13,983 bases of DNA, taken from assembly GCA_029264225.1 (NCBI GenBank), contig JARICB010000347.1:1-13983 (forward strand), given 5' to 3'. The first letter of the stretch is position 1, and each line of letters begins with the position of its first letter. Under the pieces are notes generated by a model. It was not told the DNA's origin, searched no databases, and saw nothing but the letters and a program-made list of their open reading frames with translations. The position numbers and the translations under genes are program-made. The stretch is from Nocardioides sp. (GTDB lineage Bacteria; Actinomycetota; Actinomycetes; Propionibacteriales; Nocardioidaceae). Positions 9,570-13,318 of this stretch are shown here, piece after piece.

Positions 9570-10862
9570 GTGCGTATTGCATTGCTGTCCTACCGAAGCA
9601 AGCCACATTGCGGCGGCCAGGGAATCTATATCCGTCATCTGAGCCGTGAACTCGTCAACCTCGGACACGAGGTGGAGGTCTTCTCCGGCCAGCCCTACCC
9701 CGAGCTCGACGAGGGGGTGCGGTTGACGAAAGTGCCCAGCCTTGACCTCTACCGGGAGCCGGACCCGTTCCGGACCCCGCGCCCCCGCGAGATCCGGGAC
9801 CGGATCGACGTCGAAGAGGTCCTGACCATGTGGACGGCTGGCTTCCCCGAGCCCAAGACGTTCAGTGCCCGGGTCGCTCGGCTACTCAAGGGCCGGGTTG
9901 ACGATTTCGACATCGCCCACGACAACCAGGTGCTCGGCTACGGGATGCTCGAGATCGAGAAGATGGGCCTGCCGCTGCTCACCACCATCCACCACCCGAT
10001 CACCTTCGACCGCCGCATCGACCTCGAGGCGGCCCCGACACTGCGCAAGAAGCTGTCGTTGCGCCGCTGGTACGGCTTCCTGCGTATGCAGGCCAAGGTC
10101 GCGCGGCAGGCTCGGACTGTCCTTACCCCCTCCGACACCTCGGCTCGTGACATCGCCATCGACTTCGGGGTCGACCCGGCGCGCATGGAGACCGTGCTGC
10201 TGGGTGTCGACGAGGCCTTCGTGCCGCCGACCACGCCACGTGTGCCGGGCCGGATCGTCGCCATGGCCAGCGCCGACGCGCCGATGAAGGGGATCTCGAC
10301 CCTGCTGGAGGCGTTCGCCAAGCTCCGCACCGAGCGCGACGTCTCCCTGGTGCTCGTCACCAAGCCAGAGCCCGGCGGTCGCACCGAACGACTGATCGAG
10401 AGCCTCGGCATCGGGCAGCACGTCACCTTCGTCAGCGGCGTCACCCAGGACGAACTGGTAGCGATGATGGGTTCGGCCGAAGTGGCCTGCGTGCCGTCGC
10501 TCTACGAAGGCTTCTCGCTGCCGACCGCCGAACTGATGGCCTGCGAGACGCCGCTCGTCGTGTCGAGGGCGGGTGCGATCCCCGAGGTCGTCGGAGAGGA
10601 CGGCGAATGCGCCATCATCGTCACCCCGGGCGACGTGGGCGAACTCGAGCAGGCATTGTCGAGGATGTTCGACGACCCGGACCTCCGCGAGCGGTTGGGC
10701 CGGGCTGGTCGTCAGCGCGTCCAACGGCTCTTCAGCTGGCGGGCAGTCGCGGTGGCCACCGCCGCGGCGTACGAACGAACCATCCACAGTTATCGTGCCG
10801 AGCGCGCAGGGCAGACCAGCGCGGATCGCGCACCGAAGGAGAACACCAGTGCTGACCGTTGA
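9570..10862 (+). CDS. GT4-family glycosyltransferase
   Basis: A 430-residue GT-B retaining glycosyltransferase that transfers a sugar from an activated donor to an unknown acceptor. The N-terminal domain has the glycine-rich loop SYRSKPHCGGQGIYIRHL (8-25). The C-terminal donor domain has SADAPMKGISTLLEAF (234-249) and the E-x7-E motif EGFSLPTAE (Glu313 and Glu321), followed by the ACETPLVVSRAGAIPEVV loop. No signal peptide or membrane span is seen, so it is cytosolic or membrane-peripheral. GTG 9570 is preceded by AAAGGG (9555-9560) at nine bases; the TTG further upstream would begin inside the operator. Its end overlaps the methyltransferase start by 14 bases. A KstR operator sits in its promoter. 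The last 20 or so residues look disordered. Donor and acceptor cannot be deduced. Confidence 0.85.
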   Translation: MRIALLSYRSKPHCGGQGIYIRHLSRELVNLGHEVEVFSGQPYPELDEGVRLTKVPSLDLYREPDPFRTPRPREIRDRIDVEEVLTMWTAGFPEPKTFSARVARLLKGRVDDFDIAHDNQVLGYGMLEIEKMGLPLLTTIHHPITFDRRIDLEAAPTLRKKLSLRRWYGFLRMQAKVARQARTVLTPSDTSARDIAIDFGVDPARMETVLLGVDEAFVPPTTPRVPGRIVAMASADAPMKGISTLLEAFAKLRTERDVSLVLVTKPEPGGRTERLIESLGIGQHVTFVSGVTQDELVAMMGSAEVACVPSLYEGFSLPTAELMACETPLVVSRAGAIPEVVGEDGECAIIVTPGDVGELEQALSRMFDDPDLRERLGRAGRQRVQRLFSWRAVAVATAAAYERTIHSYRAERAGQTSADRAPKENTSADR

Positions 10863-11583
10863 TTTCGACCGGCTGGGCCTGCGCCCGGGTGACCGAGTGC
10901 TCGACATGGGCTGCGGCGCGGGTCGTCATGCCTTTGAGATGTACAAGCGTGGCGCCGACGTCACCGCCTTCGACCAGGACGTCGACGAACTCGCCGTGGT
11001 CAGCGAGTGGTTCACCGCGATGAAGGAAGCCGGCGAGGTGCCGGCCGGGGCCGAGGCCGACACCTTGGAGGGTGACGCCCTTGCCCTGCCGTTCGCCGAC
11101 GGCGAGTTCGATCGGATCGTCGCCGCCGAGATCCTCGAGCACATCCCGGCCGACATCCAGGCGATCGAGGAACTGGTCAGGGTGCTGCGCCCCGGTGGCA
11201 CGCTGGCGGTCAGCGTGCCGCGTTGGCTGCCCGAGATCATCAACTGGAAGCTCTCGGCGGACTACCACAACACTCCCGGTGGCCACATCCGGATCTATAC
11301 CGACGCCGAACTGTGCGACAAGGTCACCAAGGCCGGCATGGAGTTCGAGGGCAAGGACTACGCGCACGGTCTGCACGCGCCCTACTGGTGGATCAAGTGC
11401 GCCGTCGGGGTCCGCAACGACGATCACCCACTCGCCAAGGCCTATCACAAGCTTCTGGTGTGGGAGATCATGAAGAACCCCAAGACGCTTCAGGTCGCGA
11501 GCAAGGTTCTCGACCAGATGATCGGCAAGAGCATGGTGCTCTACTTCCGCAAGCCCGAGGTTGCTCAGAGCGATGCAGCCTGA
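10849..11583 (+). CDS. Class I SAM-dependent methyltransferase
   Basis: A 244-residue Rossmann-fold methyltransferase of the UbiE/Methyltransf_11 type. Motif I is VLDMGCGAG (17-25), the acidic ribose-binding turn FDQD (41-44), motif II GDALALPF (75-82), then AEILEH (93-98) and the post-motif RVLRPGGTL (111-119). The 120-200 region, with PRWLPEIINWKLSADYHN and HAPYWWIKC, is aromatic-rich and probably forms the acceptor lid. GTG 10849 follows AAGGAG (10836-10841) at seven bases and overlaps the end of the glycosyltransferase gene. Its own end overlaps the next gene by 11 bases, so the three are one translationally coupled operon. It could methylate the glycosyltransferase product or its acceptor; the methyl acceptor is unknown. 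Confidence 0.85.
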   Translation: MLTVDFDRLGLRPGDRVLDMGCGAGRHAFEMYKRGADVTAFDQDVDELAVVSEWFTAMKEAGEVPAGAEADTLEGDALALPFADGEFDRIVAAEILEHIPADIQAIEELVRVLRPGGTLAVSVPRWLPEIINWKLSADYHNTPGGHIRIYTDAELCDKVTKAGMEFEGKDYAHGLHAPYWWIKCAVGVRNDDHPLAKAYHKLLVWEIMKNPKTLQVASKVLDQMIGKSMVLYFRKPEVAQSDAA

Positions 11584-12679
11584 GTCGAAGATCCTCAGCG
11601 CCGAGGACATTTTGAGCTGGGCCCAGGTCGAGCAGAGTGCGGCCGGGATAGCCGCCATGCAGGAGCCGGATGGTGCCGTGCCGTGGACGATCGGTGAGCA
11701 CACCGACGTCTGGAACCACATCGAGTCGGCGATGGCGATGCTGGTGGGGGGGCAGGTCGAGGCTGCGGAGCGTGCCTACGACTGGGCGTTCTCCATGCAA
11801 CGTGACAACGGCTCGTGGCCGATGAAGATCGTGGCCGGCGAGATCGAGGACCACTCCGGTGAGACCAACATGTCGGCCTACCTGGCGGTCGGCGTGTGGC
11901 ACCACTGGCTGATTCGTCGCGACGACGCCTTCGTACGTCGCGCGTGGCCGTTCGTGCGGCGCGGTCTCGACTGGGTCGTTGGCATGCAACTTCCCTTCGG
12001 TGGCATCGCCTGGTCGCAGGAGTGGGCCGACGGAGTGCCGGCGAAGATCAATGCCGAGGCGTTGCTGGCGGGCTCCTCGAGCATCTACCAGAGCCTGCGG
12101 GCCGGTGTCGCTCTGGCCGACCTGCTGGGCGACCCGCAGCCCGAGTGGGAACTGGCCGGCGGTCGACTCGGGCATGCCCTGCGTAAGCACCGGGACCTGT
12201 TCTTGGACAAGTCAGAGTTCTCGATGGACTGGTACTACCCGATTCTCGGCGGGGCGGTGCGCGGCGAGGCCGCCTACGCCCTGCTCGCGGAACGCTGGGA
12301 CACCTTCGTCGAGCCGGGTCTGGGTATCCGCTGCGTCTCGAACAACCCCTGGGTCACCGGTGCCGAGACCTGCGAGCTCGTGATGGCGCTGGATGCGATC
12401 GGTGACCGTCCACGGGCACTGCAGCTCATGGCCGACATGCAGCACCTGCGCGCTGACGGCGGCAAGTACTGGACCGGCTACGTGTTCCCCGACGACGTCA
12501 ACTGGCCGGTCGAGCACACCACCTACACCGCCGCTGCGGTCATCCTGGCGGCCGACGCGCTGTCGCTGACGAGCGCCGGGGCGTCCATCATGCGGGGCAC
12601 GACCCTCGCCGCAGACTTCGCCGAGATCGGCCTCGAGTGCGGGTGCCGCTCAGCCGACGGGGTCTCCCGCATCTCCTGA
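11573..12679 (+). CDS. Alpha/alpha-barrel protein, prenyltransferase/squalene-cyclase-like
   Basis: A 368-residue helical protein with recurring QW-like motifs: [10 protein letters not shown] (29-38), [10 protein letters not shown] (75-84), [10 protein letters not shown] (138-147) and LRADGGKYW (292-300). Such Q-x-x-D/N-G-x-x-W repeats mark alpha/alpha barrels of the terpene cyclase/protein prenyltransferase group. The DxDD acid motif of squalene-hopene cyclases and the aspartate-rich DDxxD box are missing, so a cyclase reaction is not supported. A glycoside-hydrolase-type (alpha/alpha)6 barrel acting on the sugar made by its operon partner is an equal possibility. Conserved-looking acidic and aromatic clusters ([30 protein letters not shown]) may line the pocket. 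ATG 11573 overlaps the preceding gene by 11 bases; TTG 11561 in frame is an alternative. Its 3' end overlaps the convergent methyltransferase by 30 bp. Confidence 0.7.
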
Positions 12680-13318
12680 GGTCCGCTCCAGCACACGCAG
12701 CGAGCCGAGGGCCTCCACCTCGGTAAAGGCGCCACTGGCCAGCGCCCGCTGGTAGACGTGGAAGGGTGCTTGTCCGCCGTCGGCCGGACTCGCGAAGACG
12801 TCGTGAATGGCCAGCATGCCGCCGGTCATGAGCCACTTCGCCCAGCCGGAGTAGTCGCTCTGGGCCGGCTCCTCGGCGTGGCCGCCGTCGATGAATAGCA
12901 TCGCCAGTGGCGTGCGCCAGTGCCCCGCGACGGTCATCGACCGGCCGATCACGGCGATCACCTGATCCTCGAGCCCGGCACGGGCGATCGTTCGGCGAAA
13001 GAAGGGCAGTGTGTCCATCAGGTCGAACTCGGGGTCGACCAGGCTGGCGTCGTGGTGCTCCCAACCGGCCTGGTTCTCCTCGGAGCCCCGGTGATGGTCG
13101 ACGGTGAACACGGTCCCGCCCACCTCACGCGCGGCGGCTCCGAGGTAGATCGCCGACTTGCCGCAGTAGGTACCGACCTCGAGGGCCGGGCCGTGGGCTA
13201 GTTGGCGGTGGGCGACGCGGTGCAGCAGCAGGCCCTCGTCCTCGGGCATGAAGCCCTTGGCCGACAGCGCGTGCTCAAGCAGATCGGCGGGGATCGTGGG
13301 GGATTCGGGAGCGGTCAC
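12650..13318 (-). CDS. Class I SAM-dependent methyltransferase, Methyltransf_24/CmcI-like
   Basis: A 222-residue Rossmann methyltransferase. Motif I is [12 protein letters not shown] (45-56), FTVDHHRG (71-78) carries the acidic cofactor contact, and FIDGGH (142-147) and IHDV (171-174) give the Asp/His pairs typical of metal-assisted O-methyltransferases in the CmcI/Methyltransf_24 group. Several histidines (75, 76, 88, 89) could join a metal site. GTG 13318 is the start: TAGGGT lies seven bases upstream and there is no Shine-Dalgarno, so it should be leaderless. The frame is open far upstream, but that part is antisense to the acyl-CoA dehydrogenase. The KstR site at 13337 sits just upstream of its -10, so it is probably in the regulon and works with the facing glycosyltransferase operon. 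Its substrate is unknown. Confidence 0.82.

Follow-up and report, generated by a model that had tools for sequence, protein, structure and literature searches.

A methylmannose polysaccharide gene cluster of Nocardioides carries a KstR-type operator and is probably controlled by the sterol repressor KstR

Why should genes for sugar transfer and sugar methylation stand next to the repressor of sterol degradation? The question is raised by a stretch of 13,983 nucleotides from Nocardioides sp. (GenBank assembly GCA_029264225.1, contig JARICB010000347.1, positions 1 to 13,983 of the forward strand; hereafter the window), in which a glycosyltransferase gene, two methyltransferase genes and the gene of a barrel protein lie between kstR and an acyl-CoA dehydrogenase gene. 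Our comparisons assign the cassette to the 3-O-methylmannose polysaccharide (MMP) cluster, and they make it likely that the operon is under KstR control and that MMP holds or buffers acyl-CoA intermediates. The features concerned are as follows (positions in the window, strand, description).

8828..9427, minus strand: kstR, TetR-family sterol repressor gene, divergent from manT (NF033703, TetR_N and TetR_C_20)
9528..9533, plus strand: candidate -10-like box CATAAT, read from the sequence, adjoining the operator
9534..9547, no strand: KstR-type operator GAGAACACGTTCCA at the manT (and kstR) promoter, with one core mismatch
9570..10862, plus strand: manT, orthologue of the alpha-(1->4)-mannosyltransferase of glycosyltransferase family 4 (GT4), matching 7qsg
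10849..11583, plus strand: putative meT3, class I methyltransferase gene (Methyltransf_11 and others), named by its cluster position
11573..12679, plus strand: mmpH, orthologue of the MMP endomannosidase, an (alpha/alpha)6 barrel, matching 7qsj
12650..13318, minus strand: meT1, orthologue of the MMP 1-O-methyltransferase, matching 6g7d
13337..13350, no strand: KstR-type operator TGGAACACGTTCTA between meT1 and the acyl-CoA dehydrogenase gene, with a perfect core
13380..13983, plus strand: beginning of a probable fadE34, an acyl-CoA dehydrogenase gene (Acyl-CoA_dh_N, 23.5 bits), cut by the end of the window

Searched against the sequences of the Protein Data Bank, the GT4 protein matched 7qsg over residues 1–406 (E = 8.3e-163), the facing methyltransferase matched 6g7d over residues 20–221 (E = 1.1e-84), and the barrel protein matched MmpH (7qsj, E = 2.9e-120) as its sole match up to E = 1. 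From earlier papers on MMP and from the published gene set we take 7qsg, deposited as a D-inositol 3-phosphate glycosyltransferase, to be ManT, and 6g7d, named just a methyltransferase by its depositors, to be MeT1. That gene set consists of MeT1, MmpH, pMeT3 and ManT, and pMeT3 is still putative in mycobacteria (PMC9883506). Judged from the alignments, ManT, MmpH and MeT1 of the window are orthologous to the MMP enzymes. The gene at 10849..11583, whose product is without a solved orthologue among these sequences (best match 56.7 bits, with a D-glucose O-methyltransferase among the next matches), is placed as putative meT3 by its cluster position. The cassette thus has the same four genes as the mycobacterial MMP clusters of M. 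smegmatis (MSMEG_6481-6484) and M. hassiacum, and three of them strongly match solved structures. An earlier note on this DNA had listed the product as unknown while suggesting a methylated sugar; the orthology to MMP enzymes supplies a candidate, and the operon probably makes a methylated sugar polymer. The note's alpha/alpha-barrel protein keeps its fold and turns out to match the glycoside hydrolase MmpH. Of the 120 listed MmpH homologues, many of those with a named record bear the name “prenyltransferase”, which the match to 7qsj rules out and the MMP assignment explains. A match of the barrel protein to the NCBIfam oligosaccharide amylase family (23.6 bits against a cut-off of 820.7) was read as a fold-level echo, and the methylglucose lipopolysaccharide cluster, considered at first, was set aside once the MMP enzymes matched at nearly full length.

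The overlaps of manT with meT3 (14 bases) and of meT3 with mmpH (11 bases), all on the plus strand, confirm the coupled unit that had been proposed from the sequence alone. The second methyltransferase gene does face this unit: meT1 (13318-12650, minus strand) is convergent to mmpH and overlaps its 3' end by 30 bases. The order manT-meT3-mmpH with a convergent meT1 was kept in all 24 same-genus loci, bearing out that the four genes form a unit; the 80 further loci include some in which meT1 lies far off, is encoded on the opposite strand or was not detected. A class-wide sample of 296 Actinomycetes genomes from 114 genera was searched for MmpH at E ≤ 1e-20, which detected it in 137 genomes and 39 genera. 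All 24 same-genus relatives had MmpH, and the 14 other genomes of the order had none, save two marginal matches (E = 5.5e-4 and 8.5e-4). Of the 137 MmpH genomes, G000 and G021 were already part of the comparison, and loci were added from 80 of the other 135, taken mostly by rank and the last ones for variety. Twenty further genomes, all from the family coded f22 (most likely Streptomyces, as we infer), were added separately, so that 22 of its 27 MmpH-bearing genomes were covered in all. A second locus set held the best 80 of 589 candidates; several of these overlap first-set genomes, and the two sets are therefore not independent.

The KstR protein of the window scored 265.3 bits against NCBIfam NF033703 (cut-off 280), with the next family far behind at 41.5 bits, and it falls inside the canonical KstR clade of our tree. 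Sites were scored against the published core palindrome TnnAACnnGTTnnA (PMC1995591), allowing at most one core mismatch, in the interval from -300 to +60 relative to the aligned start of manT. Genomes counted as lacking kstR had no NF033703 match at E ≤ 1e-35 or, among the first 25 Nocardioides, none above 47 bits. A KstR gene (at least 202 bits) was found in 25 of 38 Nocardioides genomes, namely in 17 of the first 25 (at least 260 bits; best match in the other eight 46.4 bits) and in eight of 13 more. A site upstream of manT was present in all 25 kstR-bearing genomes and in none of the 13 without kstR, a count made under a post hoc rule: the first rule, which also limited total mismatches to four, gave 24/25 and missed G223, and the total limit was dropped after AGAAACTCGTTTCA had been seen in L164, with both the test and the background re-run. 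As background, 234 of 4471 tiles of 360 bp from the 105 loci compared, counted without removing real KstR sites, had a site (at most one core mismatch). The manT-upstream sites of kstR-bearing Nocardioides are more than chance.

Further comparisons within the genus largely agree with this pattern. In three genomes with kstR elsewhere (G001, G011 and G015), where the divergent neighbour of manT is the gene of a DUF1707 protein, a perfect TAGAACACGTTCTA is kept 47–48 bp before manT. A kstR-less relative (G006) has, at the matching place when aligned by eye, what looks like a decayed site, GACAACCCGTTCTC. The second set gave a site in nine of nine Nocardioides loci with a local KstR and in one of 12 without (L176). 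An exact CATAAT abuts the site in 13 of the 24 listed Nocardioides rows with a site, with variants in most others, and the mycobacterial KstR motif likewise partly overlaps the -10 region (PMC1995591). These comparisons back KstR control of manT well within Nocardioides, where the coupling is tight, and the earlier proposal of such control is supported by the co-occurrence of site and regulator.

Beyond the genus the picture is mixed. Across the first-set loci, 103 of 105 were testable, and a manT site was found in 37 of 68 with a KstR or KstR-like gene (E ≤ 1e-35) and in none of 35 without. By family, the counts were 10/13 with a clear KstR-like gene and 0/6 without in Streptosporangiaceae, 2/2 in f22, and 0/12 with kstR and 0/15 without in other families. 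Three Streptosporangiaceae genomes classed as lacking kstR (G218, G244 and G326) carry, close to the cassette, a lower-scoring KstR-like gene (99–114 bits in tblastn) that groups with the other KstR-like genes of the family; reclassing them changes the family counts to 10/16 and 0/3 and the totals to 37/71 and 0/32. In one of them, G218, a site with a perfect core lies at -353, beyond the stretch that was tested. In the second set, a manT site was present in 11 of 11 Streptosporangiaceae loci, of which at least one (L223) belongs to a genome already counted among the ten above. Because 35 of the 103 testable cassettes lacked a kstR-like gene at E ≤ 1e-35 and none of these had a site, the MMP cassette cannot be called a sterol gene set; it is, on present comparisons, a widespread actinomycete module. 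The earlier note had proposed to check whether the four genes come with kstR and its operator, and had taken their occurrence mostly in genomes without either as speaking against regulation by KstR. Within Nocardioides the association held (25/25 against 0/13). In the wider sample it was partial: the 35 kstR-less cassettes, three of them with the weaker KstR-like gene nearby, had no site in the tested stretch.

From these results we propose the following mechanism. ManT would extend alpha-(1->4)-mannose chains, MeT3 would methylate O-3, MeT1 would cap O-1, and MmpH would cleave mature chains into primers for new ones. Sitting on the palindrome at the manT promoter beside the -10-like box, KstR would block manT-meT3-mmpH; metabolites of the sterol side chain would release it, and MMP, if produced here as the genes suggest, would rise with the sterol pathway. 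CoA esters of sterol acids are also a form of the KstR ligand. That KstR would repress the operon and be released by sterol acids, or by the CoA esters of these, is expected because the known regulator behaves so (release by sterol acids, PMC7807495). The cytoplasmic, acyl-binding MMP would then most likely hold or buffer acyl-CoA intermediates during sterol breakdown, a role inferred because the sequestering of acyl-CoA, modulating fatty acid metabolism, has been proposed for MMP in mycobacteria (PMC9883506). The KstR-type site at manT points to a possible new function of MMP.

Of the 20 further f22 loci, 17 have a KstR-like gene divergent from manT and 18 have TGAAACTTGTTCTA (once TGAAACTTGTTCCA) upstream of manT. 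Both loci that lack the site lack the gene too; one more lacks the gene only. The Embleya locus L231 resembles them. In 16 of the 20 genomes that 14-mer, searched with at most one mismatch, occurs at manT and nowhere else, which points to a near-dedicated regulon as far as a single 14-mer can tell, since weaker sites could exist. Streptomyces is also where MMP-type polymers are known outside mycobacteria, S. griseus making an acetylated MMP (PMC9883506); the f22 cassette differs in that the KstR-like protein encoded beside manT does not belong to the canonical KstR clade. That clade of 17 rows (support 95/99, midpoint root) excludes both the f22 and the Streptosporangiaceae KstR-like proteins. 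The sterol marker IpdE2 was found in 0/19 f22, 4/13 Streptosporangiaceae, 5/5 Mycobacteriaceae, 18/25 kstR-bearing and 0/13 kstR-less Nocardioides genomes, with at most 25 candidates scored per genome and seven of 25 kstR-bearing Nocardioides missed. Because it stands outside the canonical clade and IpdE2 was found in none of the 19 f22 genomes, the f22 regulator is probably not a sterol regulator. We offer a broad generalisation tentatively and do not favour it: MMP would be an actinomycete-wide acyl-CoA chaperone under acyl-CoA sensors of the KstR family, with service to type I fatty acid synthase (FAS-I) in mycobacteria a later and local use, the f22 KstR-like protein a near-dedicated MMP repressor, and Nocardioides MMP, held by the sterol repressor itself, a carrier of sterol-derived CoA thioesters.

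Several observations weigh against KstR control of the MMP operon. In most Nocardioides the site is common to manT and the divergent kstR, so that autoregulation alone could explain it. The three genomes with a distant kstR form one clade, and a tree-aware test with four independent pairs (three in agreement, none opposed, one not differing) was not significant (p = 0.25). A manT site was not found in G292, a member of Nocardioidaceae outside Nocardioides with a 278-bit KstR, nor in Mycobacteriaceae (0/16 with kstR, 0/1 without), nor in kstR-bearing genomes of the families coded f21 (0/5), f17 (0/4), f15 and f38 (one each). In the second set, one of 30 testable mycobacterial loci had a site, a weak one (L203), and a locus recorded as Rhodococcus sp. 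JCM 9791 (L218) gave a weak match only.

The first alternative to be weighed, therefore, is that the operators serve only autoregulation of kstR and expression of fadE34, with the MMP genes merely caught between two KstR-regulated genes. M. tuberculosis has kstR and fadE34 side by side in divergent orientation, with a single shared palindrome between them (PMC1995591); in the window each still adjoins an operator, and the MMP cassette stands between kstR and the gene that is probably fadE34. The meT1-side site follows fadE34: in L044 it lies beside the dehydrogenase gene, about 1.3 kb from meT1, and for this reason it is read as probably serving fadE34. In four other loci (L028, L048, L049 and L051) no site was found at meT1, and control of meT1 through this second operator in Nocardioides was accordingly demoted. 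The expectation of a KstR operator at each outer promoter of the cassette thus stands as to the presence of both palindromes, the one on the meT1 side probably belonging to the neighbouring gene. Against the bystander explanation, the perfect operator persists at manT in the three genomes with kstR elsewhere. Streptosporangiaceae manT sites, moreover, occur without an adjacent kstR; in the three loci examined (L096, L133 and L228) the site is flanked by manT and a divergent gene resembling GDP-mannose 4,6-dehydratase, and it may serve both. Sites at meT1 as well were found in eight of the ten first-set Streptosporangiaceae loci with a manT site and in eight of 11 second-set loci. Taken together, we consider it unlikely that the MMP genes are bystanders, and KstR control of the operon the better explanation. 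The arrangement in L096, L133 and L228 looks as if the supply of sugar nucleotide were regulated together with MMP.

The name fadE34 is probable from synteny with N. simplex and from Saccharopolyspora dendranthemae (L235), where the genes are laid out alike, with a KstR of 321 bits and an acyl-CoA dehydrogenase of 699 amino acids and two domains; its site, CGAAACATGTTCCA, passes the second rule only. In N. simplex, kstR is KR76_12270 and fadE34 is KR76_12295, both in steroid cluster B (PMC7807495, Table 3), of which, taken whole, 12 genes respond to phytosterol and 16 to cholesterol. Pimelobacter simplex 3E (L181) has kstR beside manT and sites at both manT and meT1, from which the genes between KR76_12270 and KR76_12295 would be the MMP cassette. 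The window thus shares KstR, the palindrome and the fadE34 neighbourhood with the known KstR regulon (PMC1995591) and with cluster B, and differs from it in holding a biosynthetic polysaccharide operon.

A second alternative leaves the regulation as proposed and changes the product to a variant polymer, with another sugar donor, acetylation or another methyl pattern; the acetylated MMP of S. griseus provides a precedent. Here, too, a few points tell against an unmodified MMP assignment. Leu291 and Asp293 of M. hassiacum ManT, named for GDP recognition (PMC9883506), are V291 and Q293 in the window (ungapped numbering assumed), and MmpH has Asn48 for Asp50, whose Ala variant loses most activity in M. 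hassiacum (PMC9883506), and Tyr318 for Trp315. All other discussed catalytic residues examined are kept, comprising G15, H142, K240, E313 and E321 in ManT and, in MmpH, the catalytic pair E265 (Glu262) and D45 (Asp47), and the matches span nearly the whole enzymes. The Asp50 position is N or D in a 14-row MmpH alignment and does not seem to define the family. Because the Asp47 position is near-invariant (D in at least 90% of rows) while that of Asp50 varies between N and D, the alignment favours Asp47 over Asp50 as the catalytic acid, a point left open in PMC9883506. A variant polymer is accordingly rather improbable, and a polymer of the MMP type under KstR control is preferred.

A third view would have MMP serve FAS-I, as proposed for mycobacteria, with the KstR link a lineage quirk of no functional bearing. 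The FAS-I marker PF08354 was present in 17 of 17 cassette-bearing Mycobacteriaceae, as this view predicts. Among cassette-bearing genomes of the other groups it was not found in 23 Nocardioides, 11 Streptosporangiaceae or two f22 genomes, which makes the view very improbable in general and refutes it for Nocardioides if the marker is a fair one. In the control set of 14, only Corynebacterium glutamicum, which has FAS-I, was positive, as expected. Where KstR-type sites were seen the FAS-I marker was not, and both follow family lines, which makes this a correlation of few events. The Nocardioides cassette therefore differs from the mycobacterial MMP cluster in its position between kstR and fadE34 with KstR-type operators, in the manT site that is absent from all 16 kstR-bearing Mycobacteriaceae, and in the missing FAS-I marker. 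Finally, we give hardly any credence to a surface glycolipid or steroid glycoside made during sterol use, which the earlier note had inferred from the nearby KstR operators, as the enzymes are orthologous to those of a cytoplasmic polysaccharide and the cassette occurs in many kstR-less genomes.

The product of the module is known and the module widespread, and it is its KstR-type regulation that appears to be new. No report linking KstR with methylmannose was found in the literature searched, the scope of which excluded subscription papers and supplements (including earlier N. simplex site predictions). MSMEG_6481-6484 do not appear in the main text of the KstR regulon paper (PMC1995591), and in the literature searched MSMEG_6484 came up in PMC9883506 alone. 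The cassette genes are not named in the papers on N. simplex; their four locus tags there gave no literature matches. Here the cluster occurs in genomes without a detected FAS-I marker and carries the operator of a sterol-acid repressor, and the ligand and timing of MMP are therefore directly testable in non-pathogenic strains, in part with deposited RNA-seq data. If KstR control holds true, a biosynthetic operon would join a regulon known for degradation.

Some further observations concern KstR and its sites. At L082 / L164 (Nocardioides G223, N. solisilvae), the KstR encoded beside manT has strongly diverged (about 52% identical, on a long branch) and the site is altered to AGAAACTCGTTTCA; regulator and operator are perhaps changing together. 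Elsewhere in the genome of the window, at L001, L004 and L005, KstR-type palindromes lie near genes for an enoyl-CoA hydratase, an F420-dependent LLM oxidoreductase (Rv3520c type) and a short-chain dehydrogenase/reductase. About 10.8 kb away from the manT site and beyond meT1, the f22 genomes G077 and G220 have another KstR-like palindrome, TGAAACGTGTTCTA. In eight of 17 Mycobacteriaceae loci (L106, L109, L114-L117, L119 and L124) a KstR-type TAGAACGTGTTCTA lies about 5–7 kb downstream of mmpH, and in M. smegmatis a KstR motif is found at MSMEG_6475, a few genes from the MMP genes MSMEG_6481-6484 (PMC1995591, PMC9883506); this mycobacterial arrangement may be a vestige of the link between MMP and KstR. 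Elsewhere in the window, the minus strand encodes a tryptophan 2,3-dioxygenase at 435-1523 (392 bits to TIGR03036) and a phospholipase-D-type protein at 2253-3497, neither with an evident tie to the cassette.

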